From Isoetes taiwanensis (Eukaryota; Streptophyta; Lycopodiopsida; Isoetales; Isoetaceae), in assembly GCA_021234155.1 (NCBI GenBank), contig JAJEKV010000025.1:5685310-5749309 (forward strand): DNA of 64,000 nt. Reading direction: 5' to 3'. A program made the translations under genes and the position numbers. The notes below the pieces were generated by a model that saw nothing but the letters and a program-made list of their open reading frames with translations, ran no database searches and had not been told where the DNA came from. This document shows, piece by piece, positions 1-63,080 of the stretch (within the stretch, counting starts at the first letter, position 1; each line of letters begins with the position of its first letter).

Positions 1-315
1 TGTCGGCGGGTTGGGCCCGACCCACTCCCAATTGCCCCTCCGATCCTGCGGGTTCGGTGGTCTGCCGATCCCTCTCCTCTGTTCAAGCTTCTCCCGTTCT
101 TCCCCGACTCTCCTCGGATCTTCTTGAACACGAGCAAAATGTTGGGCTTTAGCGCCCGGCGAAGAAGCTCGACTGAGGTACCATCAGGCCCATGAGACCC
201 ATATCGATCGTATGGTCGTCCGGATAATCTATCTTTGATATCGGGGATTTCCCCAAATAAAGCTGTGGTTATCCTCGTCCCAGCGGTATGGGGAACCTCA
301 ATTGCCACACGCCAT

Positions 316-729
316 CTATGGCGGCAAAGCCATCCCACGAGATCTGGGTACTCCCTTCCTCGGCGGCGTGTCGGCCGCTCTATTTCCCATGGTCATCCTC
401 CTGGCCAAGCCTCGACACCGGGCGGCCTCCGGCCCCGATGTCTTCCTCCTCGGTATGCCCTTCCTGTTAGGAGGATAGAATTTAATGAGCATCATGACCA
501 TGTCATGTTGCTTTCGACAATGGTATAGGAGAGGAGGTTCACCGGATCGAAAATGGCTCTGAGAAGTGATAGATAGGATAGGGATCCTATCGTTATTCTC
601 AAATCGGTTCACCAACTCATCTAAAATGATGTCGATGAAGGCGGATCGTAGCCATGTGTACCGGGCGATCATGGCATAAATCTCCACGATCTGAGGGTAG
701 AAGGGTCCGGGCTCTTTGGTATTGGCCAT
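316..729 (-). pseudogene. Fragment of accessory ORF-A of the chromovirus, frameshifted
   Basis: Read from the ATG at 729 (MANTK...), the frame gives a helical N-terminal region with SAFIDI, LDELVNRFENNDR and HDMVMMLIKFYPP. The same blocks appear in the counterpart at 45,599-44,918, where the frame stays open longer. The left copy loses frame around 530-600, where it lacks several CTG/CAG-containing bases found in the right copy. I recognise no family. Its position between the 5' LTR and gag, in the sense direction, marks it as element-encoded. Confidence 0.5.
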
Positions 730-1517
730 AGCGGTAGCACTAAGGTCTGAAGTTGGCGGTGGCTGCTACTGTGGCGGAAAAAGGCAAAGGGAGGCGCTAG
801 GGTTCCCTAGACACAAGGGCGGCGAAACAACGTCAAGTCCGGTGGCGATGGCGGGCGCCGCTCAAGGCGGTCGAAAGTCTTTGAAGGCAAGGCAAACAAA
901 TAACAAGAAGAAATTTTAAACGGCCGGATAACTTTTGAAATTTTAAAATTTTCCTATTAACTTTTAAATTTTATTATTATAAAATAATTATCTGGCGGAG
1001 ATCTGCGAGGCATCTGGTCGAGCGTCGGCCGCATTATCGTGCTCCTCCTCGCGACTAGGGGTCGTCGAAAAAAAGCGGCGCTTAGGAGTTGACTGGCGGC
1101 CCGTTGACTCCCGCTGACGGTCGGGCGCCGGCGCATTTTCGGCTCTTCTCGTGGTATTTGCAAGGCGACAAAAAGCAAGCGGGCGCCCGAGTTGGTTTCG
1201 GGCCTGCCCTTGACCATTTTTCGCTGGAGGCGACCGTTCTAGGAGTAATTTGAGTATGTCCGGATCCAATGGGCGCCAACTTCTCCGTCATTTGAGCTAC
1301 CCACCGACATTTTATAGTTCTTCCAATTCTTGGGCCCTCGGTCGCCCTATCCTTCTTAAGGTTACAATTTCCTAGTTTAACCTAACACCTAACCAAGCAT
1401 CAAAGAGGACTAACAACACATTAACTTAGCCTCCTCCTAACTCACCGGTACTACGAGTTAGTGTTTGGCGGTGCTATGATTTGAGAACAAACTCAAATCA
1501 CGGCTCGATACCATCAG

Positions 1518-3086
1518 TGGCACTCCCCAAACATATCGACCCGGTGGTATACATGCGGGGACTTTCCCCTCCCATGGCGACCATCCATCCCGCCATTTCC
1601 AGGGGCCCTCCATCTAACCCGGGCCGTCTACATAGAGATGCTTCGGTGAAGGACCGCGGAGGGGTCATTCGCCCATACCTTACGCGATGGAAACCTATGT
1701 CATGAAGCATGAATACAAGGTTAGCATACAACATAAATCACATATAAATATCCACCACGAGGGGTAGCACATCCATCAAGTACCGAAGCGGCAAGAACAT
1801 GCATCTAAGCTAAGAAGACACCCAAAACCCGGGTTCTACCCCGCTCCCGGACTCTAGTGGGGAAGCGGCCGGTGGGTCTCGGGGAATTGGGTAATCAATT
1901 TTGGCATGGCATTGGGCGGCATAGAACATCGGCTAGGGTTGTCCACTCCATCCGCCCCTCCCATTGCACACTTTGCGGAGGGGTCGATTCACGCTATGGC
2001 TTAGCTATAGCCTTCCGGAGACGCAGACTCGGGGATCCCCTTTGAGTCTACTCGGTTAATGACACTGGTCCGATGAGGCGAGTCGGGAGGCGCCCCTTCC
2101 CGGGATCACAAAGGTGTCGTGGGTGAGCTAGAGAATACGCTGCGCGTAAATGACCCCGCATCCGTGCCGACTTACTCACCTAATTCTACTCAAAGTGCAT
2201 GGTGCCCCCATCACGGGTCACACCACTACACCAGTGTCGGACCCATACAGAGCCCTCCACGTGACCCTAGGCTTTCGGGCCTAGCCCCATCAGAGGAGTC
2301 TCAGGAGCCTTTTATGCTCGTGCAAGACCCCACCCCCTACTTCACCACTGTGTCCCTTGTCTGGTGCTAAGCCAGACCATAGCGTCTATGACCCGGTGGG
2401 CTCTTGCGCACAGGCCGAAACTACTAGGGTGTTAAAGGAAGCACTAGGAGCATTCTAAACTCAAGCTTAGAGGCCTCTACCCCCCTATTAATCCCTGTTT
2501 ACTGAAACTACTAACTGACCCATAGAGACATCGACCATCCCATAACAGAACATCATTCATAATTGAAAGTATTCCTAATTACCAGAGAAGGGTTAGTCTC
2601 ACCCAAAACCATCCAGAAAAGAATCCTAGAGAGTTATTCTACAATTTGCAAATTATCTACCACTAACCGGAGTTTCGGCTGGACCCGTTGTCAAGGGGTG
2701 CTTCCATGGCTGTACCGGGGTAACAGCAACAGCGAAAGGGTGTTTGGCGATCTGGGGACGAACAGCAACGGTTTCCTGAGCGCTCAGCTGCTCCTGGCTC
2801 CTTGCTGGGTCGAAATTGAGCTGATATGAGGATGGCGCCTCCCTTTGGTGGCCTAGTTTAGCAACCCTCATGCTGGCCACCCGGGTTATGCCAAATGGCG
2901 CCTTCCCACTATGAATTGACCTAATCACATGTCTTTAGATAATTATCCTTTATAATTTGGTTAACATAGCTAATTAAATCCATTGTGGCCAACCCCCTAG
3001 GTTATCATACCCTAGGTGGCGTACCTATACTAGGTGACGTGTCAATATATTTATATTATCACCGTATAAATACTTGGAACGTCCTG
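1518..3086 (-). repeat. 5' LTR of the chromovirus, left copy
   Basis: About 1.57 kb, matching the LTRs at 34,908-36,474 and 46,383-47,975. The outer end is followed by CACAT (3,087-3,091), the target-site duplication. Next to the inner end, the plus strand reads ctcgatacca (1,504-1,513), the reverse complement of an initiator-tRNA-Met primer site with one A missing. The expected TGTGACG start is written tggcact here, one of many small corruptions in this copy. Confidence 0.85.
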
Positions 3087-27315: not shown

Positions 27316-27344
27316 ATGCCCTTCCTCATTGCAATTATAGCAGA

Positions 27345-28090: not shown

Positions 28091-28134
28091 TTTTGGATAA
28101 CTTCCCTTAACACTGAACCTGCTCTGATACCAGA

Positions 28135-34902: not shown

Positions 34903-34907
34903 CACAT

Positions 34908-36474
34908 TGTGACGCTCCCCGAACATATACGACCCCCGGCCGTATACATACAGGGACTTTCCCCTCCCATGGCGACCATCCCGCCACGAGCAGGGCCCTC
35001 CATCTAACCCGGGCCGTCTACATAGAGACGCTCAGGTGAAGGACACGGAGGGGTCATTCGGCCCACGCCTTCGATGGGCGCCTACGTCGCGGAAGCATGA
35101 ATACAAGGTTAGCATACAACATAAATCACATATAAATATCCACCACGAGGGGTGGCACATCCATCCAAGTACCGACGGCAAGAACATGCATCTAAGCTAA
35201 GAAGACACCCAAAACCCAGGTTCTACCCCGGCTCAGACTCTAGTGGGGAAGCGACTGACGGCTGGGTCTCAGGGAATTGGCAGACCGAATCTTGGCATGG
35301 CGTTGGCTGGCATAGAACATCGGCTAGGGTTGTCCACTCCATCCGCCCCTCCTGTGCACACTTTGCAGAGGGGTCGATTCACGCTATGGCTTCGCTATAG
35401 CCTTCCGGAGACGCAGACTCCAGGGATCACCCTTTGAGTCTACTGCAGGTTCATGACACCTGGTCCGATGAGGCAGGTCGGGGACCAGGATCACAGTGGT
35501 GTCGTGGGTGAGCTAGAGAATACGTGCCGCATCAGCGATCCCCGCATCCGTACCCGACTTACTCACCCTAATTCTACTCAAAGTGCATGGTGCCCCATAC
35601 GGGTCACACCACTACACCCAGGGAGTGTCAGACCCATACCCGGCCCTCCACGTGATCGGCTATCAGGCCTAGCCCACTGTAGGAGTCTCAGGAGCCTTTT
35701 ATGCTCGTGCAAGACCCCACCCCCTACTTCACCACTGTGTCCCTTGTCTGGTGCTAAGCCAGACCATAGCGTCTATGACCCGGTGGGCTCTTGCGCACAG
35801 GCCGAAACTACTAGGGTGTTAAAGGAAGCACTAGGAGCATTCTAAACTCAAGCTTAGAGGCCTCTACCCCCCTATTAAAACCCTGTTTACTGAAACTACT
35901 AACTGACACATAGAGACATCGACCATCCCATAACAGAACATCATTCATAATTGAAAGTATTCCTAATTACCAGAGAAGGGTTAGTCTCACCCAAAACCAT
36001 CCAGAAAAGAATCCTAGAGAGTTATTCTACAATTTGCAAATTATATACCACTAACTGGAGTTTCGGCTGGACCCGTTGTCAAGGGGTGCTTCCATGGCTG
36101 TACCGGGGTAACAGCAACAGCGAAAGGGTGTTTGGCGATCTGGGGACGAACAGCAACGGTTTCCTGAGCGCTCAGCTGCTCCTGGCTCCTTGCTGGGTCG
36201 AAATTGAGCTGATATGAGGATGGCGCCTCCCTTTGGTGGCCTAGTTTAGCAACCCTCATGCTGGCCACCCGGGTTATGCCAAATGGCGCCTTCCCACTAT
36301 GAATTGACCTAATCACATGTCTTTAGATAATTATCCTTTATAATTTGGTTAACATAGCTAATTAAATCCATTGTGGCCAACCCCCTAGGTTATCATACCC
36401 TAGGTGGCGTACCTATACTAGGTGACGTGTCAATATATTTATACGTATACCGTATAAATACTTGGAACGTCACA
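34908..36474 (-). repeat. 3' LTR of the chromovirus
   Basis: 1,567 bp, TGTGACGCTCCCC to GGAACGTCACA. Flanked outside by CACAT and inside by the polypurine tract. It reads more cleanly than the other two LTR copies in the window. Confidence 0.92.
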
Positions 36475-37069
36475 TTCTCCCCTCCTTAGAATTAATGCTG
36501 TCCTCAGCATTGGGGTTAGTTACAGATATACTAATAAGGAAAATACATTTTAAAGGACCAGGTAATTCCTTATTTCCAAAGGTAATATATATTAAAACTT
36601 TTGAAGTTCAAAACAGTTTAAGCACTAAAGTGCATTTCAGATGATTTATCATAATCAAAAAGTTCAAGGACCAAGGTCCAATGTCAACATTAGAGCAACA
36701 GCAAAACAAGACGTATAGAGAAAATAAAACTTGAAGAGTTCGGGTCATCAGCAACCCTCTAACATTTGCAGGTCACGTACTGCTCACTGGCCTGCACATG
36801 TCAGTATGTCAGTATATATATATTTAGATTGTGGTTGAAGGGACCACCCCCTTATAGTAACGAAATAACTCTATCTACCAGGGGACCTATCATGTCTATG
36901 GTTTGCAGTTCATTGCAGCATAGGGAATGGTGAAGTTCCCATTGTAGCCGAGATGAACGCAGCCTATGATCTATATGCTCTCGTAGCAAGTCGTGGTCAG
37001 CTTATGACCATGTCCTAGAGAACACAAAGGTGATCTCATCATCGGTAACGATTTTTACTTGCGATGCAT
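36475..37069 (-). other. Chromovirus 3' untranslated region with polypurine tract
   Basis: Between the integrase stop at 37,070 and the 3' LTR. Apart from the purine tract next to the LTR, which primes plus-strand DNA synthesis, nothing is recognised. Confidence 0.75.
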
Positions 37070-38563
37070 CTACCCCTCTAGGGCGCTACTCTTGGGAATA
37101 AAGCTTCCAAGCTTACCGCCGGGTGCGGGGTTGATAGCATCGTTGATGGTGCGGCCTTGAGATTCCCGCATGAAGTCCGGATAGTGCTTGTCAAGGTCTA
37201 TCTTCATCACCCAAGTAGCATCCTCAACTGGCAAGTGCTTCCACTTAACCAAGTATTGCAACATTTGAGTCCTTCTGGTTTGTTTATAAGCTCGATCAAG
37301 GAGAGTCTCAGGCACTATTTCCAGTTGCTCCTCAGTCATTTCTAGGAGGGTTGGGGTATCCAAAACCTCCTCGGGATCAGGGGTGTGTTGTTTCAAAAGA
37401 CTCACGTGAAAGACCTTGTGGATCTTCAAGCGGGGCGGCAAATCCAAGCGATATGCCTGCTCTCCAACACGCTCAATAATTTTGAACGGTCCAGCCCATC
37501 TGGGTACCAACTTCTTGCAGTTGCCAATCTTTAGCTTGGCTTGTTTTACCTTAATCTTCATCCAAACGGATTCGCCCACCTGAAAAACGCGTGGGGTTCT
37601 GTGCTTATCGGCTATACTCTTCTGACGACTGCGTGCAGCTAATAAGTACCCACGAACTTCCTCGACCAGAGCTTGCATTTCTAATAGAAGTTGTTGAGAA
37701 ACCTCCACTTTAGAAACGGGGTTATGCCATGTGTCGGGAGTAAGGCATTGATAACCATAATTTATCATGAAGGGAGACATTCTGGAAGATTCCTGTTTCA
37801 TGCTGTTGTAGGCAAACTCGACCAGATAAATATAGTCAGCCCATTGTGATTGCTTACTCCACACATAACTTCTTAGCATATCCTCTATGATGCGATTTGT
37901 AAGCTCCGTCTGACCATCGGTTTGAGGATGGTATGCCGTACTCATAGCAAGCTTAGTCTGAATAGTAGCAAAGAAATCTTTCCAGAAAGCACTTACAAAT
38001 TTGGGATCTCTGTCTGACACAATCACTCGTGGCATCCCGTGTAATCTGAAGATCTCTTTGGCAAAAAGCAGAGCAGTATCAAAGGCTGTATCTGTGGTAC
38101 GACACGGCAAGAAATGAGCCATTTTCGACAATTTGTCGACGACTACCATTAAGGCATCATACCCCCGGAGAGTTCGTGGAAGGCCGACAATGAAATCCAT
38201 GGTTATCACCTCCCATTTGGCGTTAGGCACATCCAAAGGTTGCAGCTCGCCTGGAATTCTTAACTGCTCAGCTTTGGTTTGCTGACACACCTGACACTGC
38301 TTAATGTACCTGGCAATGGCCTTTTTCATGGAAGGCTAGAAATAGCTGGATCGGATCTTAAAGTAGGTCTTCATAAACCCGGCGTGTCCAGCTATAGGGC
38401 TATTGTGTGTCTCATGAAGAATAAGCTTCCGTACTCCTGAAGTCTGCGGCACACACAACTTATCCTTGTGATATAACAAGTTGCCCTCTTTCTTATAGGC
38501 ACGAAAAGCCTCGGCGCTCCAGATCGGTCGAAGCTTCCTTAGCCAAACTATTCCAAATGTCAC
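37070..38563 (-). pseudogene. Chromovirus integrase with C-terminal chromodomain
   Basis: Reading from 38,563: GNLLYHKDKLCVP, then ETHNSPIAGHAG with the zinc-binding histidines, then CQVCQQTKAE with the cysteines. Between them a TAG stop (38,336-38,338) stands where these proteins usually have Trp (YF-stop-PSM), a one-base change. The catalytic core is intact: ITMDFIVGLP (Asp), VIVSDRDPKF (Asp), AYHPQTDGQTE (Glu). The GPF-like region is WAGPFKIIERVG and HKVFHVSLLK. The last about 80 residues (from VPETLLDRAY) contain QYLVKWKHLPVEDATW, a chromodomain, which in this family binds modified histone H3 and steers integration. The downstream part is a 419-codon unbroken frame. Confidence 0.93.
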
Positions 38564-39203
38564 AGAACTCTGGATCCGTGGCCAAGGTCTGCTCTATCTG
38601 TTTCCCAAACTCACTAGTGAGCGTAGAAATAGCATTACAATGGGTTCGGGTCACCAAGGGATGGCGTGATAAAGCATCCGCAACCACATTGTGCTTGCCA
38701 GGCTTATACATAATCTCAAAATCATACTCCTCGAGAAATTCCATCCATCTTCTCTCGACCGGAGGTTGAGGTTGGCTGGTGGATAAATAACGGAGACTTT
38801 GATGATCCGTATCCAATTGGAATCTTCTACCAAGAAGGTAGTGTCTCCATATCCGCAGAGCACGGACAACGGCTAACAATTCCTGATCATGGGTAGGATA
38901 TCGCTGCTCTGTTTCGTTCATTTTCTTTGAGTCATAGGCAATAACTCTCCCCTCCTCGCATTAGGACCCCTCGGTGGCAATCTTGCGGCATCCGCCGCCA
39001 CCGGTTTATCCCGGTCGATCGGGCAATGTGAGAACCGGTGCTGATGTTAAGGCATCCTTAAGTCGCCGGAAACTTTCCCGAACTTTTGTCTTCCGCTGGT
39101 CCATCCAATCTTTCACCTTCTCATGCTTTGTGAGATTTGTAAGAGGAGCTGCGATCTTCGCAAAATCCTTCACAAATTTTCGATAGTAGCCTGCTAGTCC
39201 CAA
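38493..39203 (-). pseudogene. Chromovirus RNase H
   Basis: The connection region at 39,203-39,006 has [20 protein letters not shown], the usual start after RT. RNase H proper continues at 38,921-38,493 with YPTHDQELLAVVRALRIWRH, LGRRFQLDTDHQSLRYL and YKPGKHNVVADALSR. About 85 bases between the pieces (38,922-39,005) are out of frame, in a GC-rich stretch that looks corrupted. The end overlaps the integrase ORF by about 70 bases in another frame. Confidence 0.88.
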
Positions 39204-39256
39204 GAAACTCCGGACTTCGGAAACATTCGCGGGAATAGGCCATTCTCTTATGGCCT

Positions 39257-40014
39257 CTATCTTTGCCGGGTCTGTAGCAATTCCCTCCTCTTAAAAATGA
39301 TATGGCCCAAATAATCGACCTTTGGAGTGGCAAACTTGCACTTAGAGAACTTGGCATAGAGCTGATGACGCCTTAGCTTTTGTAGGGCTAATCTAAGATG
39401 CTTCTCATGCTCCTCGAGGGTCTTACTATAGATGAGAATGTCATCGAAGAAAATAACAACAAAATCATCCAGATATTGCCGAAAGACATCATTCATTAGT
39501 CGCATGAAAGTTGCTGGGGCATTAGTTAGTCCAAAAGGCATAACTGTAAATTCATAATGCCCATATCTAGTGCGAAAAGCAGATTTATGGATGTCCTCCT
39601 CTTTAATCCTTATCTGATGGTATCCGGAGCGTAGATCAATCTTTGAGAAATACTTAGCCCCTTGTAACTGATCCATTAGGTCATCTGCCCTAGGCAAAGC
39701 ATAGCGATTCTTGATGGTATGCTTGTTATGTTGCCGGTAATCAATACACATCCTCGCCGAAAGCCGCCATTTTTCTTAACGAAGAGAATAGGGGCGCCAA
39801 AAGGCGAAACACTAGGTCGGATGAAACCTAGGTTTAGTAGCTCCTGAAGTTGCTTCTTAAGTTCTGCCAATTCCCGAGGACTCATACGGTACGGGGCCTT
39901 GCTAGTAGGCTTGGTACCCGGCTCTAAAGCTATTTCACATTCCACCCTCCTCGAAGGAGGAAGCTTCAATCTCATCTGGGAAAAGGTCACCAAATTCCCG
40001 GAGAAGATGAGCAA
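39257..40014 (-). pseudogene. Chromovirus reverse transcriptase
   Basis: Two frames. The first (40,014-39,676) has [40 protein letters not shown] and ILFVKKNGG. The second (39,751-39,257) has [50 protein letters not shown] and the catalytic box [11 protein letters not shown] (Phe before the Asp pair, where Ile or Val is more usual). Then [14 protein letters not shown]. The overlap near 39,676-39,751 marks one frameshift. All RT blocks are present. Confidence 0.92.
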
Positions 40015-40035
40015 TCCCTTCTGGCAAGGTATCGA

Positions 40036-40233
40036 TTACTTGCTTCTGTTTAGCATCTGACTTCTGATGGGCATAGACTGCATGATAGGGTTGAAGGGTT
40101 CACCTTTAATAGTCACGCGGGCTCCATTAGCTGCGTTGAAGGTAACTTCCCTCTTCTCGCAGTCTATGTTGGCTTTTGCGGATGCCAAGAATTCCATACC
40201 AACAATGAGGTCATATTTACCAATGTCCATCAA
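40036..40233 (-). pseudogene. Chromovirus protease, C-terminal part
   Basis: MMDIGKYDLIVGMEFL with a following ANIDCEKREVTF block is the typical end of the gypsy aspartic protease. The active-site half should lie at 40,240-40,450 but that stretch is out of frame and I could not place the DSGA motif with confidence. Confidence 0.7.
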
Positions 40234-40455
40234 CTATGCTAGTGGGCACCCAAAGCCACCGGTGCACTGGGCAACATATTTCTATTGATCTTAAGATTGA
40301 TGCGACGACCATGAGTATCACAAGATGTGTCGACCTTTTGATACCATCGGCTAGAGTGACAAGTGCCTTGGTCGAGACCTTAATGTTTCAAGTCTGAAGA
40401 CCCGAGCTATTCTAGGGGAAGCAAAATTATGTGTACTTCCCGTGATCCATAAGAA

Positions 40456-41797
40456 TTACAAAAGGCTTAATTGCCTACTTGACCTATGGTGGAAATGACA
40501 AATAGTCGACTTTTCGGCATTGCCGGTTTCTATAGCTGCAAGAATATGAGACGCACCATGAAATATACGGGAGCCTCGCCCTCGATGTGTAAGGTTGTCT
40601 CCAGCTCGTCCCAATCGAGGTCGGCCATGGCCACCGGCAAGGCGAACATAAGGACATTGTGCATAAAGTGCCCGTGTCGCATACACTGTAATATGCCTTA
40701 TCCCGCGGAGCTGTTTCGGCCTCCTTAGGAATAGATCAGAAGAGGTTTCATTACTTCCTTGCCGACATTGCTCGCTTTTGTCACCGTGGCCGAAAAGTAA
40801 CTTTCTTTTCCTGCCGGCTATACGAGTTCTGTTGAGAAGGGCCCGGACTTGGCGAACGGGGTTTGTATGGTGTGGCTGGCCGGGCCTGCCAATAAGGAGT
40901 AGGACGCGGGTACTGATTTCTTGGTGTGTCCTCCTCGAGGCTTAATGCCTTAGCCTCGGCCTCCGCAATTGATTTTGGGTCTATGGCCTTAACCATCCGT
41001 TTAATTGATGGGGCCAACCCTTCAATATAACCCTCTACGGCTCTCTTTTCATTCATTCCTGGAACATACAGCCTCAAGCGCATAAACTCATCAGTGTAAG
41101 CCTGGACCGACATACCCTTCTGCTCCAACCTATAGAAGGTTTGAATCTGCTGGCATTTGTGCGCACGAGGCACATAATTCGACTTGAACGCCTTTGGCGA
41201 ACTTCCGGTTGCATCCGCCCTCGCCCGGATGCTTGGCCCTCGCATAGCCCTTCCACCAAACACGGCAGCCTCGTGAAGGTTGGTGGTGGCAACCTTTCCC
41301 CGTATCCTTCTCTGTCATTCCATAAGACTTCCCAAACTCCTTCATCTCATCCAACCAGGATTCGCATTTAAGCCGCCTCGGATTTCCCATCAAACGGGCC
41401 AATTTCCTATTCTTCCATATACTAGTTATAGTCAGATCAACCGCCTTACGGTGCTCTTTTCTGGCGCTTTGCATGGTCACCACGATACCGATGAACCGTA
41501 AGACATCAAGTGGTTGATCGTGAGGAAGTGGCACTATCCTTAGAGGAACTTCGGTGACGCTTTAGCATGAGGCCTCCCGGTGCGTGTATGTGGCTAGCTC
41601 CGTGGGGAGATGGTTGCAGTGTGTGGACTCGATGGTAGCGGAGGTAACTCCGGTCCATCTTCCTGGGTTTGTTGCGGCGGGTTGGCATGCAATACATAGG
41701 CCTGTAATTCGCCTAACTGCCTTTTCATTAACATCGCCTCGCTCAGAGAGTCACCACCGGGCATTGGAGGGTGTCCGCCAAGCGGGCAAGCACGCAC
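40456..41797 (-). pseudogene. Chromovirus gag, several frames
   Basis: The best start is the ATG at 41,797, followed by PPQQTQEDGPELPPLP. The capsid region has KLARLMGNPRRLKCESWLDE, KSYGMTEKD and, after a shift, QIQTFYRLEQKGMSVQAYTD, MRLRLYVPGM and EGYIEGLAPSIKRMV (41,263-40,781). A proline/serine-rich stretch follows. Near 40,650-40,690 a possible decayed zinc knuckle reads GHFMHN. At least three frame changes occur. Confidence 0.8.
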
Positions 41798-41829
41798 CGC
41801 CTAAATCGAAAGCATGAAAAAGGTATAAG

Positions 41830-42741
41830 CATATTTATAACAGATAAATTCTTACAAATTGTATCATGTCGAACAAAGGGGTAGAGAGAGAACACAAGGA
41901 AATTTATTATTATAAGAGGAAAAACTTTCCTATTACAGTTTCACACCAAAAGTTGGTACAGGATTATTATACAAAGATAACATGATACAACTGGAACTTA
42001 GAGTGAACTCACAGACAGTATAAAAAAAAACGAAACTAGAAAGATCCGCCTAGGGGTTCGCAAAAGGGGTAAGTAATTGAATAGCGGACACTCTCACGCA
42101 TGTACCATAACGAAGCTTAGAAGCGTGCCCGTGCTTGGACAATCACCGGGTTGGTATTCCCATGTTGGGCTAACAATGAGAAGATTGAAAAGCCTTCGCA
42201 AAGCATAGAAGAGTTGCCACAGGTGGTCATTGGCGACCTCGAAAGCCTCGTGCCTGCTCATACTCCAATAGTCCCAGGTATGGCACATGGTCGCCTTTCA
42301 GGTCCTCAAAAGCTCATCCCTAAGGATGTTAACTATCTCCAACCCTTTTCAAAGCATCATAGGGTTCTCCTGGTGGCGGGGGTTCCATCTCATAGCCTTC
42401 ATCCCATTCGGGATATTCGCCATATCTCTGGCCATAGTCCTGCTCTGGCGGCCTGGGATCATCCCTCCTTATCATGTCTGTAATCCTCTCCTCATATTCC
42501 CAAAGGGTCTCTTCTGCAAGAGAATTAAAATGAATATAGAGGGTTGGATAGTTTTGTTATAGACCAACTCGAATAACCAGCAAAACACATGGTAGAAGGA
42601 ATAGTTTTTAATTGTATTCATAAAGATAGTAATTTCAATCGATGAAAAGAAAGATGTATCATATTATAAAGTGGCTAAAAAAATTTGCCAACCCAAAATT
42701 CCACAATCATACGCAATACAAAAATGCGTAGTACAATTAGT
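41830..42741 (-). other. Chromovirus spacer between ORF-C and gag
   Basis: About 0.9 kb inside the element with no recognisable domain on either strand and only short frames. It could be the 3' part of the accessory region or a leader for gag. Confidence 0.45.
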
Positions 42742-44116
42742 TTAAGAGCTAGGTCCTCCCTCTTCATCCGTAGGCCTAGGAGGTGGTGGAGGCGGTCGGT
42801 GTCGCAGCAGAGTCACCCCGGGGTCTACTGTGGCAGCCGCAATAGAGGCAACCTCTGGTGGATAGGCAACGGCCAATGGGGCTGCCGTGAGGAGCTTCAT
42901 GCTCATCCAGGGCGCAATATCCTGACCTAAGGCCGTCAGGGCAAGATCTCGTCGCACGAGTACATAAGTAAACGTACGATAGGGGAGCTTCTTGTGCTCG
43001 GCCAGAGTAGAGAGAGCACGGAGGGCCCACCACGAAGCTTCAGCCTCCGGCCCTAAATCCCGGGCTATAAAAAGGACTTGGCCGTGTCGAAAGGCTGACA
43101 AAAAGAAACGGGTAAGGTGGTTGCCCGATACCTTCCCTTGCGGGGTCTCTGATGTGGCCACCTCCTTATCCAAATCCATGGAAACCTCCTCTTCCTTAAG
43201 TTCTTGCTGCTCCTCCTTCACATGAGCAGGGTTATGATATAAATCCTCTCCCTCGTCATCTGAACCCGAGGGAACCTCAACCATATTAATATTTGGGACG
43301 TGAGGTCCCATAGCCGTGAAGGCATCTGGTGAGGGCTGAGAGGCCGGCTCCTGCATCACGAAGTCCCGAAGACGTAGTAGAGTCTCAGCCGGCTCTATGG
43401 TCTCTTGGCGGAACCGAGAGCAGCCGCCGCACCTCCAGGAGGAAGCTCAATAGAAGTGAAGTCAATGAAGTCGCCCATGCAATACTCCGCAAGCTCATAA
43501 AGCACGCGGGTCTTTACGCTTATGCCTAAATCCAGCCACCATGTGATAAGTCCGCATAATATCATCCAGAGAAGATATTCTTGCCCTTGGAGATAGATAA
43601 TCGGAAGGGCATCCAGCCCCGACAAGCCTACTGCCTTGCTCCCCCGCAAGGTGGCAGCTCTTCCGCTAATCGCTCCTAACGGCGAAGTCGCCCATGCCTA
43701 TGTGTTCGCTCTTCCCCTCCTCTGAAGACTCGTGCGTTTGCCTTTCTACTGTGCAAGGTTTCATCTTCTCGACGTATTGGTCCATGAGGATAGCTAGGGC
43801 TTAAGGCGACCTCAAGGTATTGCCGCCCCGATGCCGCACAACGCGTGTGTTTGCCCCATCGGAGCTTTCCCTTCAGGACATCATATGTATGAGTGTCTCC
43901 CCCGAGCATCTCTCGGACTACCTCCCTCTCCAGATACAGCTGGGGAGGATCCCCAAGAGGAATACACAGAGGGAGCATCTCCTCCCTCAGAGAAATCCAA
44001 AAATCCGGCCAGACCGGGTGCCTCCGCATGTTGGCAAGGAGATCTAGGCGCCGGCATAGCAAAGGCCGCAAGCAGGTCGAAAGGGACTTATGGATCCCAT
44101 TGCTCTCCTCGGCCAT
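42742..44116 (-). pseudogene. Accessory ORF-C of the chromovirus, unidentified protein
   Basis: Three consecutive frames read in the sense direction of the element: 44,116-43,676 (starting MAEESNGIHKS, with HPVWPDFWISLREEMLPL and LEREVVREMLGG), 43,649-43,395 (LPIIYLQGQEYLLWMILC, VLYELAEYCMGDFIDF) and 43,359-42,742 (205 codons). The last part has an acidic stretch (VKEEQQELKEEEVSMDLDKE), an Ala/Leu-rich helical region and a polyproline end. I recognise no family. If the shifts are errors, this is one protein of roughly 450 residues. It is not gag-pol and has no place in an ordinary chromovirus. Confidence 0.55.
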
Positions 44117-44365
44117 GGTACCAGCGACATAAGGTCAAGCGCCATGGCTTTAAGGGAGGAGGAAGCAAGAAAATGGAAGAGAACAAGTTGGAGTTCCCAC
44201 TAAAAACCCTTTTTAACCCCTTTTTATTATTACGCTGATGTCAGCAAATTTCATATTTAAAATAAAATATAAAGTTCTCAATACAACTTCAACTTAAGAC
44301 AAAAAGAGTTTTTATTATTTATTCGGAAAAGAAAATATGTACAATGCGGAGGCCATCAAAATATG

Positions 44366-44741
44366 CTAAGGATGCTCCCCCCGAATCCTACGGGCGAGGG
44401 CTAAGTCCTTTGGCATAATGGTAACTCTCTTTGCGTGAATCGCGCAAAGGTTAGCGTCACCAAAAAGTGCCACCAAGTAGGCTTCAGCAGCCTCTTGGAG
44501 TGCCAAAATTGCAAAGGTCTGGAAACGGAGGTCGGTCTTGAATCGCCGCAGCGATCTCCGCACCTGCCTCTCGGAAGGGAAGCTTCCGTGATAGAAGCCG
44601 GGTGGACTTCTCGAACTTGGCGGATTTCCGAAGGCCACCTGCACCGGTCGATACCGATGGGGCTTCCTTTGTGGGGCGGGTTTTGTAGGCGCCCCTTCTG
44701 GGTGTGGCACCGCCTTTAGCGCCAACAAACGGCCGAGTCAT
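44366..44741 (-). pseudogene. Histone H3-like sequence inside the chromovirus
   Basis: Read on the minus strand, this is a histone H3 core. One frame has [13 protein letters not shown]; the next frame has [19 protein letters not shown], matching the H3 alpha-N helix; then the first frame resumes with [40 protein letters not shown] and [18 protein letters not shown] and stops at 44,366. The order and spacing are those of H3, and the [14 protein letters not shown] wording is that of canonical H3 rather than CENH3. Two frameshifts fall in the alpha-N region. The N-terminal tail is diverged: LALKA and APTKPAPQ are visible, but no clear ARTKQTARKS. It is in the same direction as gag-pol, between ORF-A and ORF-C, so it was captured by the element. 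No introns are visible. Confidence 0.88.
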
Positions 44742-44879
44742 TCACTCCGCTGCTCTCGGACCGAGTCGGTATTCTTGCCAAAAGTTCCGGCAGTCCTTAG
44801 TTTCTCCTTGTATTGATTCACGGGTCTTTCGGGCTAAACCCTTCCTCCTGCTTAATGGTTACATGTTCGCCGTGGTTGG

Positions 44880-45599
44880 CCCGACCCACTCCCCACTGCC
44901 CCCTCCGCCCCGCGGGTTCACTGGTCCCCGCCGATCCCTCTCTCTTCGTTCAAGCTTCTCCCGTTCTTCCCGGACTCTCCTCGGATCTTCTTGAACCCGA
45001 GCAAAATGTTGGGCTGCGGCGGCCGAAGAAGCTCACTTCGGTACTGGCTGCGGGTCTGAGACCCATATCGACCGTATGGTCGCCGATAATCTATGCTGAT
45101 ATCGGGGATTTCCCCCCAAATAAAACTGTGGTTATCCTCGTCCCAACGGTATGGGGGAACCTCAATTGCCCTGCCATCTATGACGGCAAAGCCATCCCCG
45201 AGATACCGGTACTCCCTTCCTCGAGCGGCCGTATCAGCCCGCTCTATTTCCCGGTGATCATCCTCCCCCGCCAAGCCTCGACACGGCCGGCCTCCGGCCC
45301 CGATGTCTTCCTCCTCAGTATGCCCTTCCCGCTCGGGAGGATAGAATTTAATGAGCATCATGACCATGTCATGTTGCTCGACAATGGTATAGGAGAGCTG
45401 GCGGAGGTTCAGCCGGATCAGAAATGGCTCTGAGAAGTGATAGATAGGATAGGGGATCCTATCGTTATTCTCAAACCGGTTCACCAACTCATCTAAAAGG
45501 ATGTCGATGAAGGCCGACCAGAGCCATGTACCCAAGCATCATGGCATAAATCTCCACGATACCGAGGGTAGAAGGGTCCGGGCTCTTGGTATTGGCCAT
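44880..45599 (-). pseudogene. Accessory ORF-A of the chromovirus, unidentified protein
   Basis: The first ATG after the 5' LTR in the sense direction is at 45,599 (MANTKSPDPSTLGIVEIYAM). After one shift near 45,530 the frame is open from 45,535 to 44,918 with SAFIDILLDELVNRFENNDR, FLIRLNLRQLSYTIVEQHD, MVMMLIKFYPPE, then a charged region and RYLGDGFAVIDGRAIEVPPY. The end, in a neighbouring frame, could be a charged coiled coil and a Gly-rich tail. It is not gag by motif and I recognise no family. The left-copy counterpart is at 316-729. Confidence 0.55.
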
Positions 45600-46382
45600 A
45601 GCGGTAGCACTAAGGTTCACGGTTGAGCGGTGAGGGCCGGGTGGCGAAAAAAGCGGGTAAGGGAGGCGCTTAGGGTTCCCTAGACACAAGGGCTTAATGG
45701 CAACGCCAAGTCCTGCATGGGCGATGTATGGCGCTCGGGGCGGTCGGGTGCCAAGGCAAGGCAAACAAATAACAAGAAGAAATATTAAACGGCCAGATAA
45801 CTTTTGAAATTTTAAAAATTTCCTATTAACTTTTAAATTTTTATTATTATAAAATAATTATACGGCGGAGATACGCGAGGCATACGGTCGGGTGTCGGCT
45901 GCATTATACGTGTTCCCGCCCGACTAGGGTCGCCGAAAAGCAAGCGGCGCTACCGAAGTTGACTGGCGGCCCGTTGACTCCTCGGGCCGACCGGTCGGGC
46001 GCCGATCGCATTTTCGGCTCTTCTACCGCGGATCGCAAGACGACAAAAGCAAGCTACCGAAGTTGGTTTTCGGCCCGCCCTTGACCATTTTTCGCCTGGA
46101 GACGACTGTTCTAGGGTAATTTGAGTATGTCCGATCCAATGGACGCAACTTCTCTGTCATTTGAGCTACCCACTGACATTTATAGTTCTTCCAATTCTTG
46201 GGCCCTCCAGTCGCCCTATCCTTCTTAAGGTTACAATTTCCTAGTTTAACCTAACACCGAACCAAGCATCAAAGAGGACTAACAACACATTAACTTAGCC
46301 TCCTCCTAACTACCGTGCTACGAGTTAGTGTTTGGCCAGTGCTATGATTTCGAGCAACCGAAATCACGGCTCGATACCATCG
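45600..46382 (-). other. Chromovirus 5' leader with primer-binding site
   Basis: Non-coding stretch between ORF-A and the 5' LTR. The plus strand ctcgatacca (46,370-46,379) is the reverse complement of the initiator-tRNA-Met primer site with one A missing. The remainder matches 730-1,517 and has no recognisable gene. Confidence 0.75.
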
Positions 46383-47975
46383 TGGACGCCTCAACATATA
46401 CGACCCCCGGCCGTATACATACGGGGACTTTCCCCTCCCATGGCGACCATCCCGCCACGAGCAGGGCCCTCCATCTAACCCGGGCCGTCTACATAGAGAT
46501 GCTCAGGTGAAGGACACGGAGGGGTCATTCGGCCCACGCCTTCGATGGGCGCCTATGTCGCGGAAGCATGAATACAAGGTTAGCATACAACATAAATCAC
46601 ATATAAATATCCACCACGAGGGGTAGCACATCCATCCAAGTACCGACGGCAAGAACATGCATCTAAGCTAAGAAGACACCCAAAACCCAGGTTCTACCCC
46701 GGCTCAGACTCTAGTGGGGAAGCGACTGACGGCTGGGTCTCAGGGAATTGGCAGACCGAATCTTGGCATGGCGCTATCGGGCATAGAACATCGCCTAGGG
46801 TTGTCCACTCCATCCGCCCCTCCCGTGCACACTTTGCAGAGGGGTCGATTCACGCTTATGGCTTCGCTTATAGCCTTGGGGAGACGCAGCAGACTCGGGG
46901 ATCACTTTGAGTCTACTCCGTGTTCATGACACTGGTCCGATGAGGCAGTGCCTGGGAGGCGCCCCTTCCGTGATCACAAGTGGTGTCGTGGGTGAGCTAG
47001 AGAATACGCGCCGCATCACCACCCCCATCATCCGCACTCCCACTTACTCACCCTAATTCTACTCAAAGTGCATGGTGCCCCATACGGGTCACACCACTAC
47101 ACCCGTGGAGTGTCGGACCCATACAGGCCCCTCCACGTGACCAGGCCATCGTGCCTAGCCCATCTGTAGGAGTCTCAGAGCCTTTTATGCTCGCGTGCAA
47201 GACCCCACCCCTACTTCACCACCATCACAGTGTCCCTTGTCCGGTGCTAAGCCGCACCATAGCGCCTATGACCCGGTGTGGGCTCTTGCGAGACAGCCTA
47301 AACTACTAGGGTGTTAAAGGAAGCACTAGGAGCATTCTAAACTCAAGCTTAGAGGCCTCTACCCCCTATTAATCCCCTCAAGCATCAAAACTACTAACCC
47401 AACCCATAGAGACATCGACCATCCCATAACGTAACATCATTCATAATTGAAAGTATTCCTAATTACCGTGAGAAGGGTTAGTCTCACCCAAAACCATCCA
47501 TAAAAAGAATCCTAGAGAGTTATTCTACAATTTGCAAATTATCTACCACTAACCGGGAGTTTCTACCGGACCCGTTGTCAAGGGGTGCTTCCATGGTCGT
47601 GTCGGCAAACAAAGAACAAATGAAAGGGTGTTTGGCGACTGGGGATCTAACAACAACGGTTTCCTCGACCGCCACCGCCCCCCCGCTCCTTTGTCGGGTC
47701 GAAATTGAGCCGATATGAGGATGGCGCCTCCCTTTGGTGGCCTAGTTTAGCAACCCTCATGCTGGCCACCCGGGTTATGCCAAATGGCGCCTTCCCACTA
47801 TGAATTGACCTAATCACATGTCTTTAGATAATTATCCTTTATAATTTGGTTAACATAGCTAATTAAATCCATTGTGGCCAACCCCCTAGGTTATCATACC
47901 CTAGGTGGCGTACCTATACTAGGTGACGTGTCAATATATTTATACGTATACCGTATAAATACTTGGAACGTCACA
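46383..47975 (-). repeat. 5' LTR of the chromovirus, right copy
   Basis: Matches 34,908-36,474 over its full length. The inner terminus is blurred (gtggacgcc for TGTGACGCTCC); the outer terminus is clean (GGAACGTCACA). The flank is CGCAT (47,976-47,980), CACAT in the left copy. Confidence 0.9.
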
Positions 47976-48305
47976 CGCATGGTGACGTAGAGGGACCACG
48001 TTGAGGACCTCAAGAGTTGTTGGGGAGAGGGGAGGGGAGATATGAGGAAAGGACTTTGGAACATCATTCCTAGACTATCCTAGTGATCCGGTGAACGGGA
48101 GCTCAATAAGGTCATGGCTTAGCAAGGTGGTCCCATGAATGGCATTCCTAGACTATGCTAGTGAATCGGGAGCTCAATTAGGGGTCTGGCTTAGCAGATA
48201 GTACCAGTAATGGCAGACCAAATCCCATTTCACATTGCTCTTAACCGGATTCAACATGTTTGATCGACCTTGTGTCCATTCATGCAGTAGGAACATGAAA
48301 CGAAG

Positions 48306-48870
48306 AGGGCTGAAGCAAGAATGGTCGACCAATGACCATGGCGTCTTGGCTACAACATTGAAAGCAACCCTTAAAAAGGAACTTTCATATTGCTAGAAAA
48401 TGACATGTGGATCGAGGCATACCAATAGAAGACTGCATGCATCATTTTAATTTTTATCTCTTAGCCCCCGCCGAGGGGAGATTTTGTGGAGCAACAAACA
48501 CTTGTCATTTCGTTCAGCTCACCGTTGTTATATCCCCACTCGAGTTAATGGTGTCGTGTGTTCGGCTCGGCTCATTGGCTCCCCACTCGACTTGGTGGCG
48601 TCGTGTATTTCTGCATTAATTGGCTCCCCACCTGACTTGGTGATGTTCTGTGTTTGGCTCGGTTAGTTGGCTCCCCACTCGACATAGTAGGAAGCATGTA
48701 TGAACGAGGGCTGAAGCAAGAATGCTCAACTAGTGACCATGGCATCTTGGCTACAACATTGGAAGCAACCCTTAAAAGAACTTCCATATTGCTAGAAAAT
48801 GATATGTGGATCGAGGCATACCAATAGTAGACAGCGAGCACCATAGATTTTTTTTTATCTCTTATCCCTC
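48306..48870. repeat. Two direct copies of a ~160-bp block, right copy
   Basis: Same pair as at 3,417-3,990, with the same internal differences, so the pair predates the large duplication. Confidence 0.8.
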
Positions 48871-48978
48871 GCCGAGGGGGGATTTCATGGAGCAATAGAC
48901 ATCAATTTGTTCAGCTCGACTAGTTGGCTCCCCACCCGACTTGGTGGCGTCGGCTACATTAGTTGGCTCCCCACCCTC
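48575..48978. repeat. Five irregular copies of a TTGGCTCCCCAC motif, right copy
   Basis: Starts near 48,575, 48,619, 48,666, 48,922 and 48,962. Counterpart of 3,679-4,083. Confidence 0.7.
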
Positions 48979-49450
48979 GACGTATATGAACCGTATCCCA
49001 TGGGGCCATACATAGGAGATAAATAATAACCAAAGGAAGGTCCAGCTCTTCAGCAATTAAACAAGAAGCAACTAGTAAGCACATTAGACAAGGTTGACAG
49101 GGAAGAATAAGAGCCATCAAAATCAGAGGGACACAAGAGGAGAAATGGAGGGTAAAACGGAAAAGTCGAAACACAGACAGAAATTAAGCGCTTTAAAACT
49201 TGCAGTTAGAACATAGAGAAACCATTCTTTATAAAAAGTATTAATTAAATTTTTTGTTGGGTTCTGGAATCCCAGTTTCCCTGGTATGCTCTGCAGCAGC
49301 ATCATCTGCTGCGAGGCAGCACTGCTCTGCCGCTGCAGCACAGGGCCTTCCTTTTCTTCTAGCCTGCTTTTTTTTTCCGCTCGCCATTTTTTTTCGTTCC
49401 ATTTCTTCGTCTTCGGCACAGTAGCGGCCCCAAATCGCCGAGCAGCTACA

Positions 49451-49900
49451 GATCCTCTTTAACTCCGTCAGCATTTTCATCAGCACAACCACCAGTAGGG
49501 CGCTAAACTTCAGAAATCCCCTGCTTGTTGATGTGGGTAGTCAATCTGCCCTTTTCCCCCGTTCCTTTGACGCATAAGAATGGCGGAGCTGGTTTGATCT
49601 GCTCTAATTTGGGGGATTGTGCGGTGGAAAAAGCAGAGTGTATCGAAAAACTTCCTTCATGTAACAAAACAGGGGATCCCCATTTGTGGGTTTTCTCGTT
49701 TTTTCGCCCAATCTTCACAGAAAGACCTTCATCGGCTAGCAGAGGACGCCCATTGTCGAGTTCTTCGTGTCAGCCTTTGATTTCTTCGTCTATGAGCTCA
49801 AACGTGAGAAATATCAACAAACAGGGGATTCCTATTGGTGGGTTTTTCGTTTTTCACCTAATTTAGGCGATTCTTGGATATGCATTTCCGACAACGGCAT
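49451..49900. other. 450-bp host segment upstream of the gene, single copy here
   Basis: The undisturbed version of the segment that flanks copia 1 on both sides in the left copy. Its single state here shows what the locus looked like without the copia. It ends about 150 bases before the start codon. Confidence 0.8.
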
Positions 49901-50053
49901 TTCTGCATTTTGTAAACAGTATTAATAGTACAGATAAGAAAGGAAACAGGCATTGCATCAGAGTAGGATTTGGATTGTGCTTGAAAAAGGAAATACAAGG
50001 GAGCAAAAGCCAGGGGGCCTCCTAACCGAAGAGCCCGAAGTGAGAGTTCATCC

Positions 50054-52137
50054 ATGTCTGCAGATCTAAAGCAGCAGTTCATCGCCAAGGTAACAGAAGC
50101 ATCTGCCGTGCTTAGAGAACCCGAAACAGGGAGGCCAGTGCTGAGGAAGACACAACCTAAGGTAAATCCTCCTAAAGCTCAGAATAAAACTCCAGTAAAG
50201 CAGCCCCCTCCGATTCTGAAGAAGGTATCAAGCTTTGATCGTCCAGAGCGCCAGAATGACAGCATTTACTCTGTCAGCGGTCTGCATTTCGATGATGGCA
50301 TGCTTTCATATACTTATAACCCAGCTCAGGATGAAATAGTGAAGGAGGACTCCGTGCCCTCTAGTCCTCATCTGTTCAGTTTCTTTGATAGAGTTCATGG
50401 CAGAAATGGCTGGTTCCCTGGTATCAGTAGTCCTGAGGATGAATCTAGTAGCAGTTGTAGCAGTAGCCTCGAGGCCGCCTCACCGCCTCCCAGGATTGCC
50501 AATGCAGCTGCTCCACAGAAGAAAAGAGTCACCTTTGCTGTTCCTGAAGTTATGCCAGAGCCTGTTAGGAAGGCCACACCTTATCCTCCTCGCAAAATCA
50601 AGCTTCCTGTCTGTTCCCGCAAGCAGGCTCCTAAGCCTGGCAGGGTCGCCCCCGAAGGCATAGAACAGGCTTCGCCCGATTCTGTTCGTAAACGCTGTGG
50701 CTGGATCACTGCACAGAGTGGTGAGAAATTGTTGCCCTTTCTCTGATTTCTTGTTATATCTGTTGCTGGTTCTTGCTAAATTTAAAGAGACTTGGTCTTC
50801 TCTTGCTGCTAGTCAGTTTATGTAGTTAGCTTCTCTTGATCCTTTTTCTAAGAACAATAGACAATATTTTCTTAGATAGGTAGACATGCATTCTAGTATT
50901 TCTAGCTAACCTTCATAATCATCATTCACTTTTATGTCATTATTATAGTAGACATTGTAAATTGTGATATTAAACTTCTATGTGGCTCTGATTTCCTTCA
51001 GTTGCAAGAGCAAAACTTTCATGGCAGATTTTCTCTTCACTATTGAATCATTACTAACAAACATTCTCAAATGCAGATCCAACATATGTTGCGTATCATG
51101 ATGAGGAATGGGGTGTTCCTGTTCATGAAGACAAGTACGTTCCCTTCACATTCCCAATTTTTATGTTTACTAACTGGGAAGAGAATGTATTGTCCCTCAA
51201 ACCTGGTTGTAACTTTTACTTAAACTTGTACAACACTTCCCCAGAAAATTGAAAATAGTGTTCTTATGAACCTCTGCAGTTTCATAGTCCAAACCATCCT
51301 ATTCCATGATCAGTAAACGAAGCATTGTAGTACAATTCTCATTGTGTCCTTATATATCTATGGTAATTTTAAACACTGTTTTCTTATGGATTTGAAACTC
51401 TGTTTTCTTATTCATTGCAGGTTGTTATTTGAGTTGCTAACCCTAGCAGGCGCGCAAGCTGAGCTCAGTTGGTCTGCATTATTGAATAAACGAACGCATT
51501 ATAGGTACATCTATTGGAGTCAAGCACTTTGGATAAAAGAAACCCGACCTTTTCAAGACATTAATAGTGCATAGTTACCTTTATTCACAGGGAGGCTTTT
51601 GCTGGATTTGATCCAGCCAAGGTGGCAAAGTTTGATGAGGAAAAGATTCATTTATTAGCAAACGATGCTGAAATCTTGCAACATGATGGGAAGATCCGAG
51701 GTATTGTGGAAAATGCCAAGTGCATTTTAGATGTAAGTTACTTTCAGAATTTCCTTCTTTCGTTTATTAACATAAACAATGACCAAATGAATGACATTTT
51801 CATTTTGCAGATAACCCAAGAATTTGGATCATTTGACAAATTTATATGGCAATTTGTCAACCACAAGCCCATCTGCAACAAATACCGAACATCGCTTCAA
51901 GTGCCTGTGAAAACTCCTAAATCAGAGTACATGAGCAAGGATCTTATCAGGCGTGGTTTCCGATCTGTTGGACCCACAATCATGTACTCTTTTATGCAGG
52001 CTGCCGGTATGACGAATGATCATATCATACAGTGTTTTAGATATCACCAAGTGCAAAATTCAAATATAGAACAAAGAGATAGTAGTGACCATCTTCAAAA
52101 TCATAAAGAGGAAACAGATGAGATGTGCAATCTGTAG
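50054..52137 (+). CDS. DNA-3-methyladenine glycosylase I (Tag family), intact, five exons
   Basis: Exons 50,054-50,720, 51,077-51,134, 51,421-51,504, 51,591-51,732 and 51,811-52,137 join in frame to 426 codons including the stop (425 residues); all introns are GT-AG. The enzyme removes 3-methyladenine from alkylated DNA, the first step of base-excision repair. Residues 1-210 are a low-complexity, Ser/Pro/Lys-rich extension typical of plant members. The catalytic HhH-GPD domain starts at KRCGW. The family's zinc ligands are all present: Cys215, His230 (AYHDEEWG), and His388 and Cys392 (NDHIIQC). Trp259 (AELSW) matches the base-stacking Trp46 of E. coli Tag. The residue aligned with E. coli Glu38 is Ala251, with a Glu at 256, as I recall for plant homologues. 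VNHKPI, KTPKSEYMSKDL, RRGFRSVGPT and YSFMQAAG complete the domain. The N-terminal extension is the least certain part. Confidence 0.93.
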
Positions 52138-52889
52138 TCATTAGGAGGGAAAGTGTGTGCTGAGAAGCCTTACCTGGGTGACTGTTGCGGCTCAATTTTA
52201 ATTTTCCCCTTTCTTTAAGATTTTAACACCCTGTAATCTAATTTCCATGTATTATAAAAAGAATCTGTTTGCAACTTATTGTGGAGCAAGGCTATAAGAT
52301 GATAACCTGCGTTATTTATTTTCCAAATGGAACAGGTTACAATTTTCTATCTTGTAAATGAAAAACTTCCATTTATATAGAAGTTTGTGCCACATATCTA
52401 TATTCCATAACGGTTTATAGAAATCAACTTGCACATGTATGCATGTTTATAGATGTAAATATAATCTGAATAACGAAATTGAAGAAAAGCTACCTACTAC
52501 TGTGCAGCTTTTTAGGATAATTATTGGTCCGGTTAAAGGGCAGAATAATGATGTTGCATCATAGGTATTCTTTTTTCACAGCTCATGATGATAGGAGATG
52601 CTGTTATGGATTGGCACGAGATGCAAAATAACAATCCTTTGCTTCCGTTTTTTCTAAAGGTTTGGAAGAAAGAAGATGACAAAGAGGACATGTATGGAGG
52701 AAGCAATGGAGCATTTATTTAACTAAGAGTTTCATTACCTCCACTTGTGCCGGCTAGGCTGGTAGCAGCAACTTGTTAAATTATCCACGGCGAAAGGACG
52801 CCATAGCCTGACAAGCGAGCTCAAAAGGGAGCCGCGTCTCCTTTTCTCAACACTTAATTTAATGGACGCTTGCTGTTGAAGAGTTGGTA
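52138..52889. other. 3' flank of the intact glycosylase gene
   Basis: Presumed 3' UTR and flank; no further gene. Differs from the left copy by a 25-bp loss near 52,292 and a 10-bp gain near 52,445. Confidence 0.55.
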
Positions 52890-53290
52890 GGGAGCACATT
52901 CTGCCCTAATCTGATGCACAGGTTGTGGCCTTGCTGTTGTTGTCAACAGGAAACTAGGCGCCTATACATTTGACCTAACCGCGTTGCATTATTTGGGCCC
53001 ATATATATCCCACAAGCATATGGCTTCTTGTCGCCCTGTCGTAACCTCTCAAACAGAAGCACTTTTGACCTAATCTCCTTTAACCGCGTTCCATTATTTG
53101 GGCCCATATATATCCCACAAGAATATGGCTTCTTGTCGTCCTGTCGTTAGCCTCTCAAAGGGAGCACATTCTGCCCTAATGTTGTACAGCCTTGTAACAC
53201 TCCACTAATCATGTTCCATTATGGATTGCTAACATTTGGGCCCCATATATCCCACAAGCATGACTTCTTTGTCTCTCTGTCCTAACTCTT
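52890..53290. repeat. Small tandem array downstream of the gene, right copy
   Basis: Units with TTTGGGCCCATATA start near 52,984, 53,089 and 53,214. Counterpart of 13,291-13,690 with the same unit order and divergence. Confidence 0.8.
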
Positions 53291-56811: not shown

Positions 56812-56812
56812 A

Positions 56813-56825
56813 TGGTATCAGAGCT
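56813..56825 (+). other. Primer-binding site (initiator tRNA-Met)
   Basis: TGGTATCAGAGCT, one base after the LTR end. This is the cleanest example in the window and shows what the versions lacking an A at 1,504, 17,226 and 46,370 should read. Confidence 0.9.
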
Positions 56826-57066
56826 TTGATCTTGGCAGACCAGGATCGAGCACTGACCGTAATCCTATAGGAACTAACTAATCTAGACATTCAGTTTGGA
56901 GATAAAAGCCCAAGCACGAACCTCAAGTAGTGGGAAATTTTTTCTTTCCCGGGGTAGAGTTAGTAATTATCTAGAATTAGGATAATTAGAGAACATATTT
57001 AAGATGAAATAGATGGAAGAAAAGCCTCCTAAGAAAACCTAGTAAATTTTAGTCACTTTTTGTCCG

Positions 57067-62800: not shown

Positions 62801-63080
62801 GAGTACCTCGAAGGATAATTGTATATGAAATTATTAAATCTTGATAAACTTAAATGTCGTATTAAGTAAGCCTAATAAGTACCCTGCTTTAATAGAGTTA
62901 TGAATTGATAAGTTATTGGGATAATGCAATGTCCTAGTAATGTTTTAAAAAAATATTACCTTAGAGTAATTCTAATAATTGTGTAAGTATAATAGTAATA
63001 AATTGTATGCATCAAGTTGGTTGCAGGACAGGAAGATCCCAAGGTGGGGAGACTCCTGATGCTGCGGACAGCATCAATTC
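59805..63080 (+). other. LARD-like interior without recognisable coding
   Basis: About 3.3 kb with only short frames and no enzyme motif. A small palindrome, ATTACCTTAGGGTAAT or with one change, occurs at 62,463-62,478 and 62,955-62,970. Left-copy counterpart is 20,135-23,424. Confidence 0.5.

Follow-up and report, generated by a model that had tools for sequence, protein, structure and literature searches.

A broken histone H3 fragment lies in sense between the 5′ LTR and gag of a plant-type chromovirus in Isoetes taiwanensis

Results

Structure of the element

The window, the whole stretch of 64,000 nucleotides of Isoetes taiwanensis DNA analysed here, carries on its minus strand a Ty3/gypsy chromovirus whose internal region holds a fragment of a histone H3 sequence. 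The backbone of the element consists of the following features.

34908..47975, minus strand: Ty3/gypsy chromovirus, LTR to LTR, 13,068 bp (LTR alignment and flanks)
46383..47975, minus strand: 5′ LTR (LTR alignment)
46368..46379, minus strand: primer-binding site (PBS) TGGTATCGAGCC, 3 nt after the 5′ LTR (sequence)
40781..41314, minus strand: gag, Ty3 capsid / Retrotrans_gag (Pfam)
40036..40233, minus strand: protease, RVP_2 (Pfam)
38493..39775, minus strand: reverse transcriptase (RT) and RNase H, fragmented (ORFs and Pfam)
37070..38335, minus strand: integrase with C-terminal chromodomain, 421-aa open frame (ORFs, Pfam and protein search)
37169..37315, minus strand: chromodomain, tryptophan kept, first and third cage aromatics absent (Pfam and HP1 alignment)
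36475..36487, minus strand: polypurine tract (PPT) AAGGAGGGGAGAA, directly before the 3′ LTR (sequence)
34908..36474, minus strand: 3′ LTR (LTR alignment)

We found all the features that define a Ty3/gypsy chromovirus: LTRs, PBS and PPT, Pfam domains in the order gag, protease, RT, RNase H and integrase, and a chromodomain at the C-terminus of the integrase. The PBS resembles what we take to be the usual initiator-Met tRNA PBS, TGGTATCAGAGC. The outer ends of the element read TGTGACG/CGTCACA, and its 5-bp flanks, CACAT (34903-34907) and CGCAT (47976-47980), match at 4/5 positions, plausibly as a decayed target-site duplication (TSD). The original prediction had described a complete 13-kb element, and this holds for its structure; yet the RT/RNase H region is broken, while integrase and chromodomain form a single open frame. 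The CpG observed/expected ratio of the chromovirus is 0.78.

The closest integrase proteins, from short contigs, cover 66% and 61% of the query at 73% and 77% identity, respectively. Among the best 120 of 7,199 matches, the named relatives are plants (Tanacetum, Adiantum and others) at 40-50% identity, and those named PITA are presumably Pinus taeda. Neither the integrase sequence nor the integrase alignment had a relative in the viral contig collection.

Over 1,561 aligned bases the two LTRs share 91.3% identity (K2P 0.093). The element lies partly within a large tandem duplication (3-23903 vs 44867-63592), the first copy of which holds a second 5′ end.

3..3083, minus strand: second copy of the element 5′ end (window position 3 pairs with 44867)

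The window start cuts this second copy off; in register, ~200 bp more would be needed to reach the H3 fold piece. The 3′ LTR is 94.1% identical to the LTR in copy 1, which is more than to its own 5′ partner, and the 5′ LTR and copy 1 share only 88.8%. The three LTRs are not clock-like, and an LTR clock is unreliable here.

The interval between PBS and gag is ~4.5-5 kb long and contains, besides the H3 piece, ORFs of no known family.

44918..45538, minus strand: ORFx, upstream of the H3 fragment (ORF; also in the second copy, 316-729)
44669..44781, minus strand: expected place of the H3 N-terminal tail, none recognisable (shuffle and homologue-tail tests)
44366..44668, minus strand: H3 fold fragment, residues ~36-135 plus stop, H3.3-like, frame broken (Pfam, PDB, frame-aware alignments and shuffles)
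44318..44323, minus strand: AATAAA, 43 nt downstream of the H3 stop (sequence alone)
42742..44134, minus strand: further ORF pieces between H3 and gag (ORFs; no Pfam family)

ORFx, in the ORF region 44918-45599, begins with MANTK in both copies of the element. It has no Pfam family, and 0/86 protein-search candidates reached E<=1e-3. Between the copies, changes fall at 20/198, 21/201 and 30/199 sites of the three codon positions. A match of ORFx to phage locus L001 of the viral contig collection was judged to be chance, and the 234-aa ORF had no relative in that collection. A tRNA gene was not observed, nor did any Rfam family reach its gathering score.

Identity and position of the H3 fragment

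The H3 fragment sits inside the LTR bounds, between the 5′ LTR/PBS and gag and in sense to the element; the positions of PBS, LTR and gag confirm the placement originally predicted. All six H3 motifs quoted in that prediction were recovered on the minus strand. The fragment matches the Pfam Histone family with E = 1.7e-24, and its top PDB match is H3.3 (7ux9_E, E = 4.7e-33). Shuffled sequences never attained the H3 score, either for residues 37-78 (0/300) or for residues 79-135 (0/300). Residues 36-135 are contiguous, with no intron within the matched part.

Two diagnostic residues, Y41 and L90, are what we take to be of plant H3.3 type. CENH3 is characterised by a diverged fold and a longer loop 1; a 14-residue stretch and the MPKD motif of the fragment are presumably of canonical H3 type. 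Position 87 is F, unlike canonical H3.3. A search for H3 homologues, of the kind proposed as a check, returned no sister-like homologue among the best 120 of 7,992 scored sequences, the best being identical at 50/58 residues over the C-terminus. The viral contig collection, which may omit records of the source genome, held no relative of the H3 fragment, and tblastn of the 64-kb window with histone H4 gave no match at E<=1.

Reading frame and decay

The prediction had the element encode an H3-like protein of its own, and the reading frame of this copy does not support this. In a strict frame-aware alignment over 44781-44369, 86/133 residues were identical and the frame changed 4 times, including 3 times inside the fold. 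With a lax alignment, residues 37-78 were 29/39 identical with 5 frame changes, and residues 79-135 were 47/57 identical to H3.3 with none. Because EKSTRLL is out of frame with the remaining five H3 motifs, the sequence lacks a single H3 frame, and no open frame with a start codon, as a functional H3 would have, spans the whole fold. Over the region, the sole long frame with an ATG start begins at 44741 and runs for 85 aa, through EKSTRLL and then away from H3; it has no Pfam match.

We compared the density of frame changes in H3 with that in pol. The H3 sequence has 4 changes in 0.41 kb (9.8/kb), and four H3 references gave 4, 4, 4 and 6 changes (9.8-13.7/kb). Against pol pieces from relatives, ten alignments showed between 0 and 13 changes (0-6.4/kb); these references are mostly more distant (44-51% identity in the eight longer or weaker cases). 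One pol stretch of ~0.35 kb exceeds H3 in frame-change density (7 against P0013). In this rough comparison, H3 appears at least as broken as the average of pol.

Neutral simulation gave a probability of at least 10 changes in the last 57 codons of 0.048 at K = 0.046, which is half the LTR distance, rising to 0.66 at K = 0.093. These values allow the last 57 codons to have decayed neutrally from a near-canonical H3 since approximately the insertion, and selection is not required. Residues 79-135 are better conserved than the rest of the fragment, and some past constraint on them is possible. For the 20 changes in residues 37-135, a canonical donor had P = 0.0025 (K = 0.046), 0.15 (K = 0.077) and 0.44 (K = 0.093). 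Dating the capture by the LTR clock was abandoned, given this dependence on the K assumed and LTRs that are not clock-like.

The N-terminal tail

A functional H3 would carry an N-terminal tail with K4, K9 and K27, and the DNA upstream of KPHRYRP matches such a tail at chance level. Alignment of residues 1-36 to this DNA scored 29, against a shuffle mean of 26.9, and 93/300 shuffles scored as high. Homologue tails, taken from the best 120 homologues, fared no better: 1/111 beat all 40 shuffles, which is the chance level. We also simulated decayed tails, which scored on average 127, 102 and 83 at K = 0.095, 0.15 and 0.20 (5th percentiles 96, 77 and 52; minima 77, 39 and 32). Tails simulated at fold-like decay stay visible. 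The H3 sequence is therefore a piece of the fold that begins at residue ~36 and ends with the stop. Its sequence is most simply read as a 5′-truncated H3; it is also possible that the donor had a quite different tail instead. An earlier full-length reading, with a start-like TTG at 44781 and a tail that had lost most of its lysines, was dropped for its chance-level tail match.

The integrase chromodomain

According to the prediction, the integrase also carries a C-terminal chromodomain, whose fold is known in this family for reading modified H3. The domain itself is present (Pfam Chromo, E = 6.3e-8, 32.9 bits vs a cut-off of 25.1). In an alignment to Drosophila HP1, W is kept, L stands at Y24 (I or V if the gap is ignored) and L stands at Y48; two of the three cage aromatics are missing. 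The pertinent sections of PMC3350952 and PMC3605345 describe two groups: group I, the H3K9me-reading type, needs the three cage aromatics Y24, W45 and Y48, and group II, found in plants, lacks the first and usually the third. The chromodomain here departs from group I and agrees with plant group II. For plant group II domains, the relevant part of PMC3350952 states that the interacting factor was not found, and regards their heterochromatin location as indirect evidence for some chromatin recognition. The premise that the fold reads modified H3 rests on group I, so it is not simply transferable to this domain. With no K9-bearing tail and a group II chromodomain, the pairing of a reader with its target is unsupported at both ends in this copy.

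These observations bear on whether the element family encodes a working H3-fold protein, as a packaging or targeting aid, with this copy as a dead member. The sense orientation, the neighbouring ORFs without known family and the C-terminal fold, which is conserved without a frame change, would fit such a protein. The missing tail, the group II chromodomain and the broken frame speak against it, as do the absence of a sister-like H3 among the best 120 of the 7,992 sequences (none beyond 50/58 over the C-terminus) and of a relative in the viral contig collection, with the limit on source-genome records given above. We regard a working protein as very unlikely. In a more speculative form, the copy in the window would be dead, and live family members would encode an H3-fold protein without a tail and under selection. 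Such a protein would enter the particle or the integration complex and, together with the integrase and its chromodomain, guide the element towards chromatin; we give this even less credence.

Origin of the H3 fragment

Of the three options in the original prediction, which were marking the element's targets, a place in its particles and passive gene capture, the last fits best. We think it likely that a plant-type chromovirus took up, at the RNA level, a portion of a host message for H3 (H3.3-like), and that the piece then decayed and is non-coding cargo here. The sense orientation, the lack of an intron and the AATAAA 43 nt after the stop fit with the capture of a spliced message via template switching. 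Plant H3.3 genes contain introns. Inside the particle, reverse transcriptase would have changed templates, moving between the RNA of the element and a spliced H3 mRNA packaged with it. A 5′-truncated, intron-free H3 piece (residues ~36 to stop) would thereby have entered the PBS-gag interval in sense orientation, and in the present copy it would be non-coding cargo, decaying along with the rest of the element. Alongside the identity, position, orientation, intron-free matched part, undetectable tail and broken frame of the H3 sequence, which are observed directly, we infer the RNA route, the packaging of the mRNA and the lack of function.

Template switching between unrelated packaged RNAs is a capture route described in the corresponding part of PMC13317346, and the section of PMC7264820 on transduced genes, which names maize Bs1 as an example, notes that they usually share the orientation of gag and pol. 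According to the passages of PMC7264820 and PMC13317346 on Bs1, the internal region of this LTR element contains segments of a plasma-membrane ATPase gene and of other host genes, all of them incomplete. The H3 piece likewise lies between LTRs, in sense and without an intron in its matched part, and would derive from a host gene. The two cases differ in that the cargo here is H3, the integrase ends in a chromodomain and no intact frame exists in this copy, whereas the Bs1 segments gave a transcribed and translated chimeric gene, as stated in the Bs1 passage of PMC13317346. The LTR-captured genes of rice and sorghum (672 and 1,343, respectively, in the portion of PMC3726574 that covers them) are also host genes between LTRs, many of the rice ones being pseudogenes. 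In the same portion, 72.4% of the LTR-captured sorghum genes are expressed, and a higher share is under purifying selection; captured cargo is thus not always dead, which counts against a reading of passive decay.

Group II plant chromoviruses (Tekay, Reina and Galadriel) resemble the element in having an integrase C-terminal chromodomain without the first and third aromatics, in the sections of PMC3350952 and PMC3605345 devoted to them. They differ from it in that the element here has the long PBS-gag interval with extra ORFs and an H3 piece. Compared with canonical H3.3, the fragment is alike over the C-terminal fold and differs in its undetectable tail, its broken frame and the F at position 87.

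With only one copy showing the H3 site, capture probably, but not certainly, came before the insertion of the element and not after it. The piece could instead have arrived late, if an H3 retrocopy or a DNA fragment inserted into an element that was already resident and dead. Besides the single copy with an H3 site, another inserted element in copy 1 of the duplicated region favours such an arrival. However, the longest A run (minus strand) within 216 bases after the H3 stop is 5, and the longest repeat common to both H3 flanks is 8 bp, close to that of 200 shuffles (mean 7.3, maximum 10). The canonical-donor probability also argues against a late arrival at K = 0.046 but not at higher K (0.15-0.44), which makes the dating argument weak. 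Overall, we consider a late arrival unlikely, though the least so of the rival explanations.

The H3 sequence is real and correctly placed, but it is broken in this one copy and most likely a captured host fragment, not a working histone. Capture from a host message would add a core histone, in an element with a chromodomain integrase, to the host genes captured by plant LTR elements, as far as our literature searches reach. These searches, which covered titles and abstract openings, returned no H3-carrying LTR element among the papers listed, and the word 'histone' is absent from the main texts of PMC7264820, PMC13317346 and PMC3726574. Provisionally, H3 as cargo of an LTR element may be new, while the kind of event is already known. 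If sister copies kept H3 intact, they would offer a test of retroelement use of histones for packaging or targeting; the present case mainly shows how a captured fragment can mimic a meaningful pairing.

The duplicated region

The tandem duplication is uneven in its conservation. In bins of 200-500 bp, identity is mostly 96-100% across the low-copy middle (~48.1-54 kb), where 3,956 aligned bases agree at 99.3%. It is only 70-96% in the transposon parts to either side of this middle, and the falls in identity lie close to the transposon boundaries. This contrast could reflect repeat-specific assembly error, gene conversion among transposable elements (TEs) or faster change of TEs. Because the TE stretches differ far more between the duplicate copies than the flanks do, assembly error may have added breaks to the H3 sequence.

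The same contrast bears on whether the association of H3 with the element, or its breaks, is as a whole an assembly error, that is, a chimeric consensus in repeats. A repeat of 440-450 bp that flanks the insert in copy 1 points in the same direction. Against this, LTRs, PBS, PPT and TSD are coherent around H3, and the integrase has an uninterrupted frame of 421 aa. We consider such an error improbable, ranking it below a late arrival and above a working H3 protein. The preferred reading remains the capture of part of a host H3 message.

In the left TE of the duplication, CpG transitions account for only 84/349 differences, so methylation decay alone is insufficient. A DNA-3-methyladenine glycosylase gene piece (51622-52137; Pfam Adenine_glyco, E = 2e-40) lies in the near-identical part of the duplication. 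The insert in copy 1 is copia-like and ~4.8 kb long (5013-9839, within 4563-10280), with ends of ~270 bp that are 80% alike. Its flanking target direct repeat of 440-450 bp (93%) far exceeds a normal target-site duplication, and is possibly an unmerged contig overlap. A further copia element (24329-27315) has two long open frames of 543 and 461 aa, and the CpG observed/expected ratio over 24300-28200 is 0.11, compared to 0.78 in the chromovirus. Inside the right-hand transposon, 57053-57781 consists of four units with a period of 213-214 bp.
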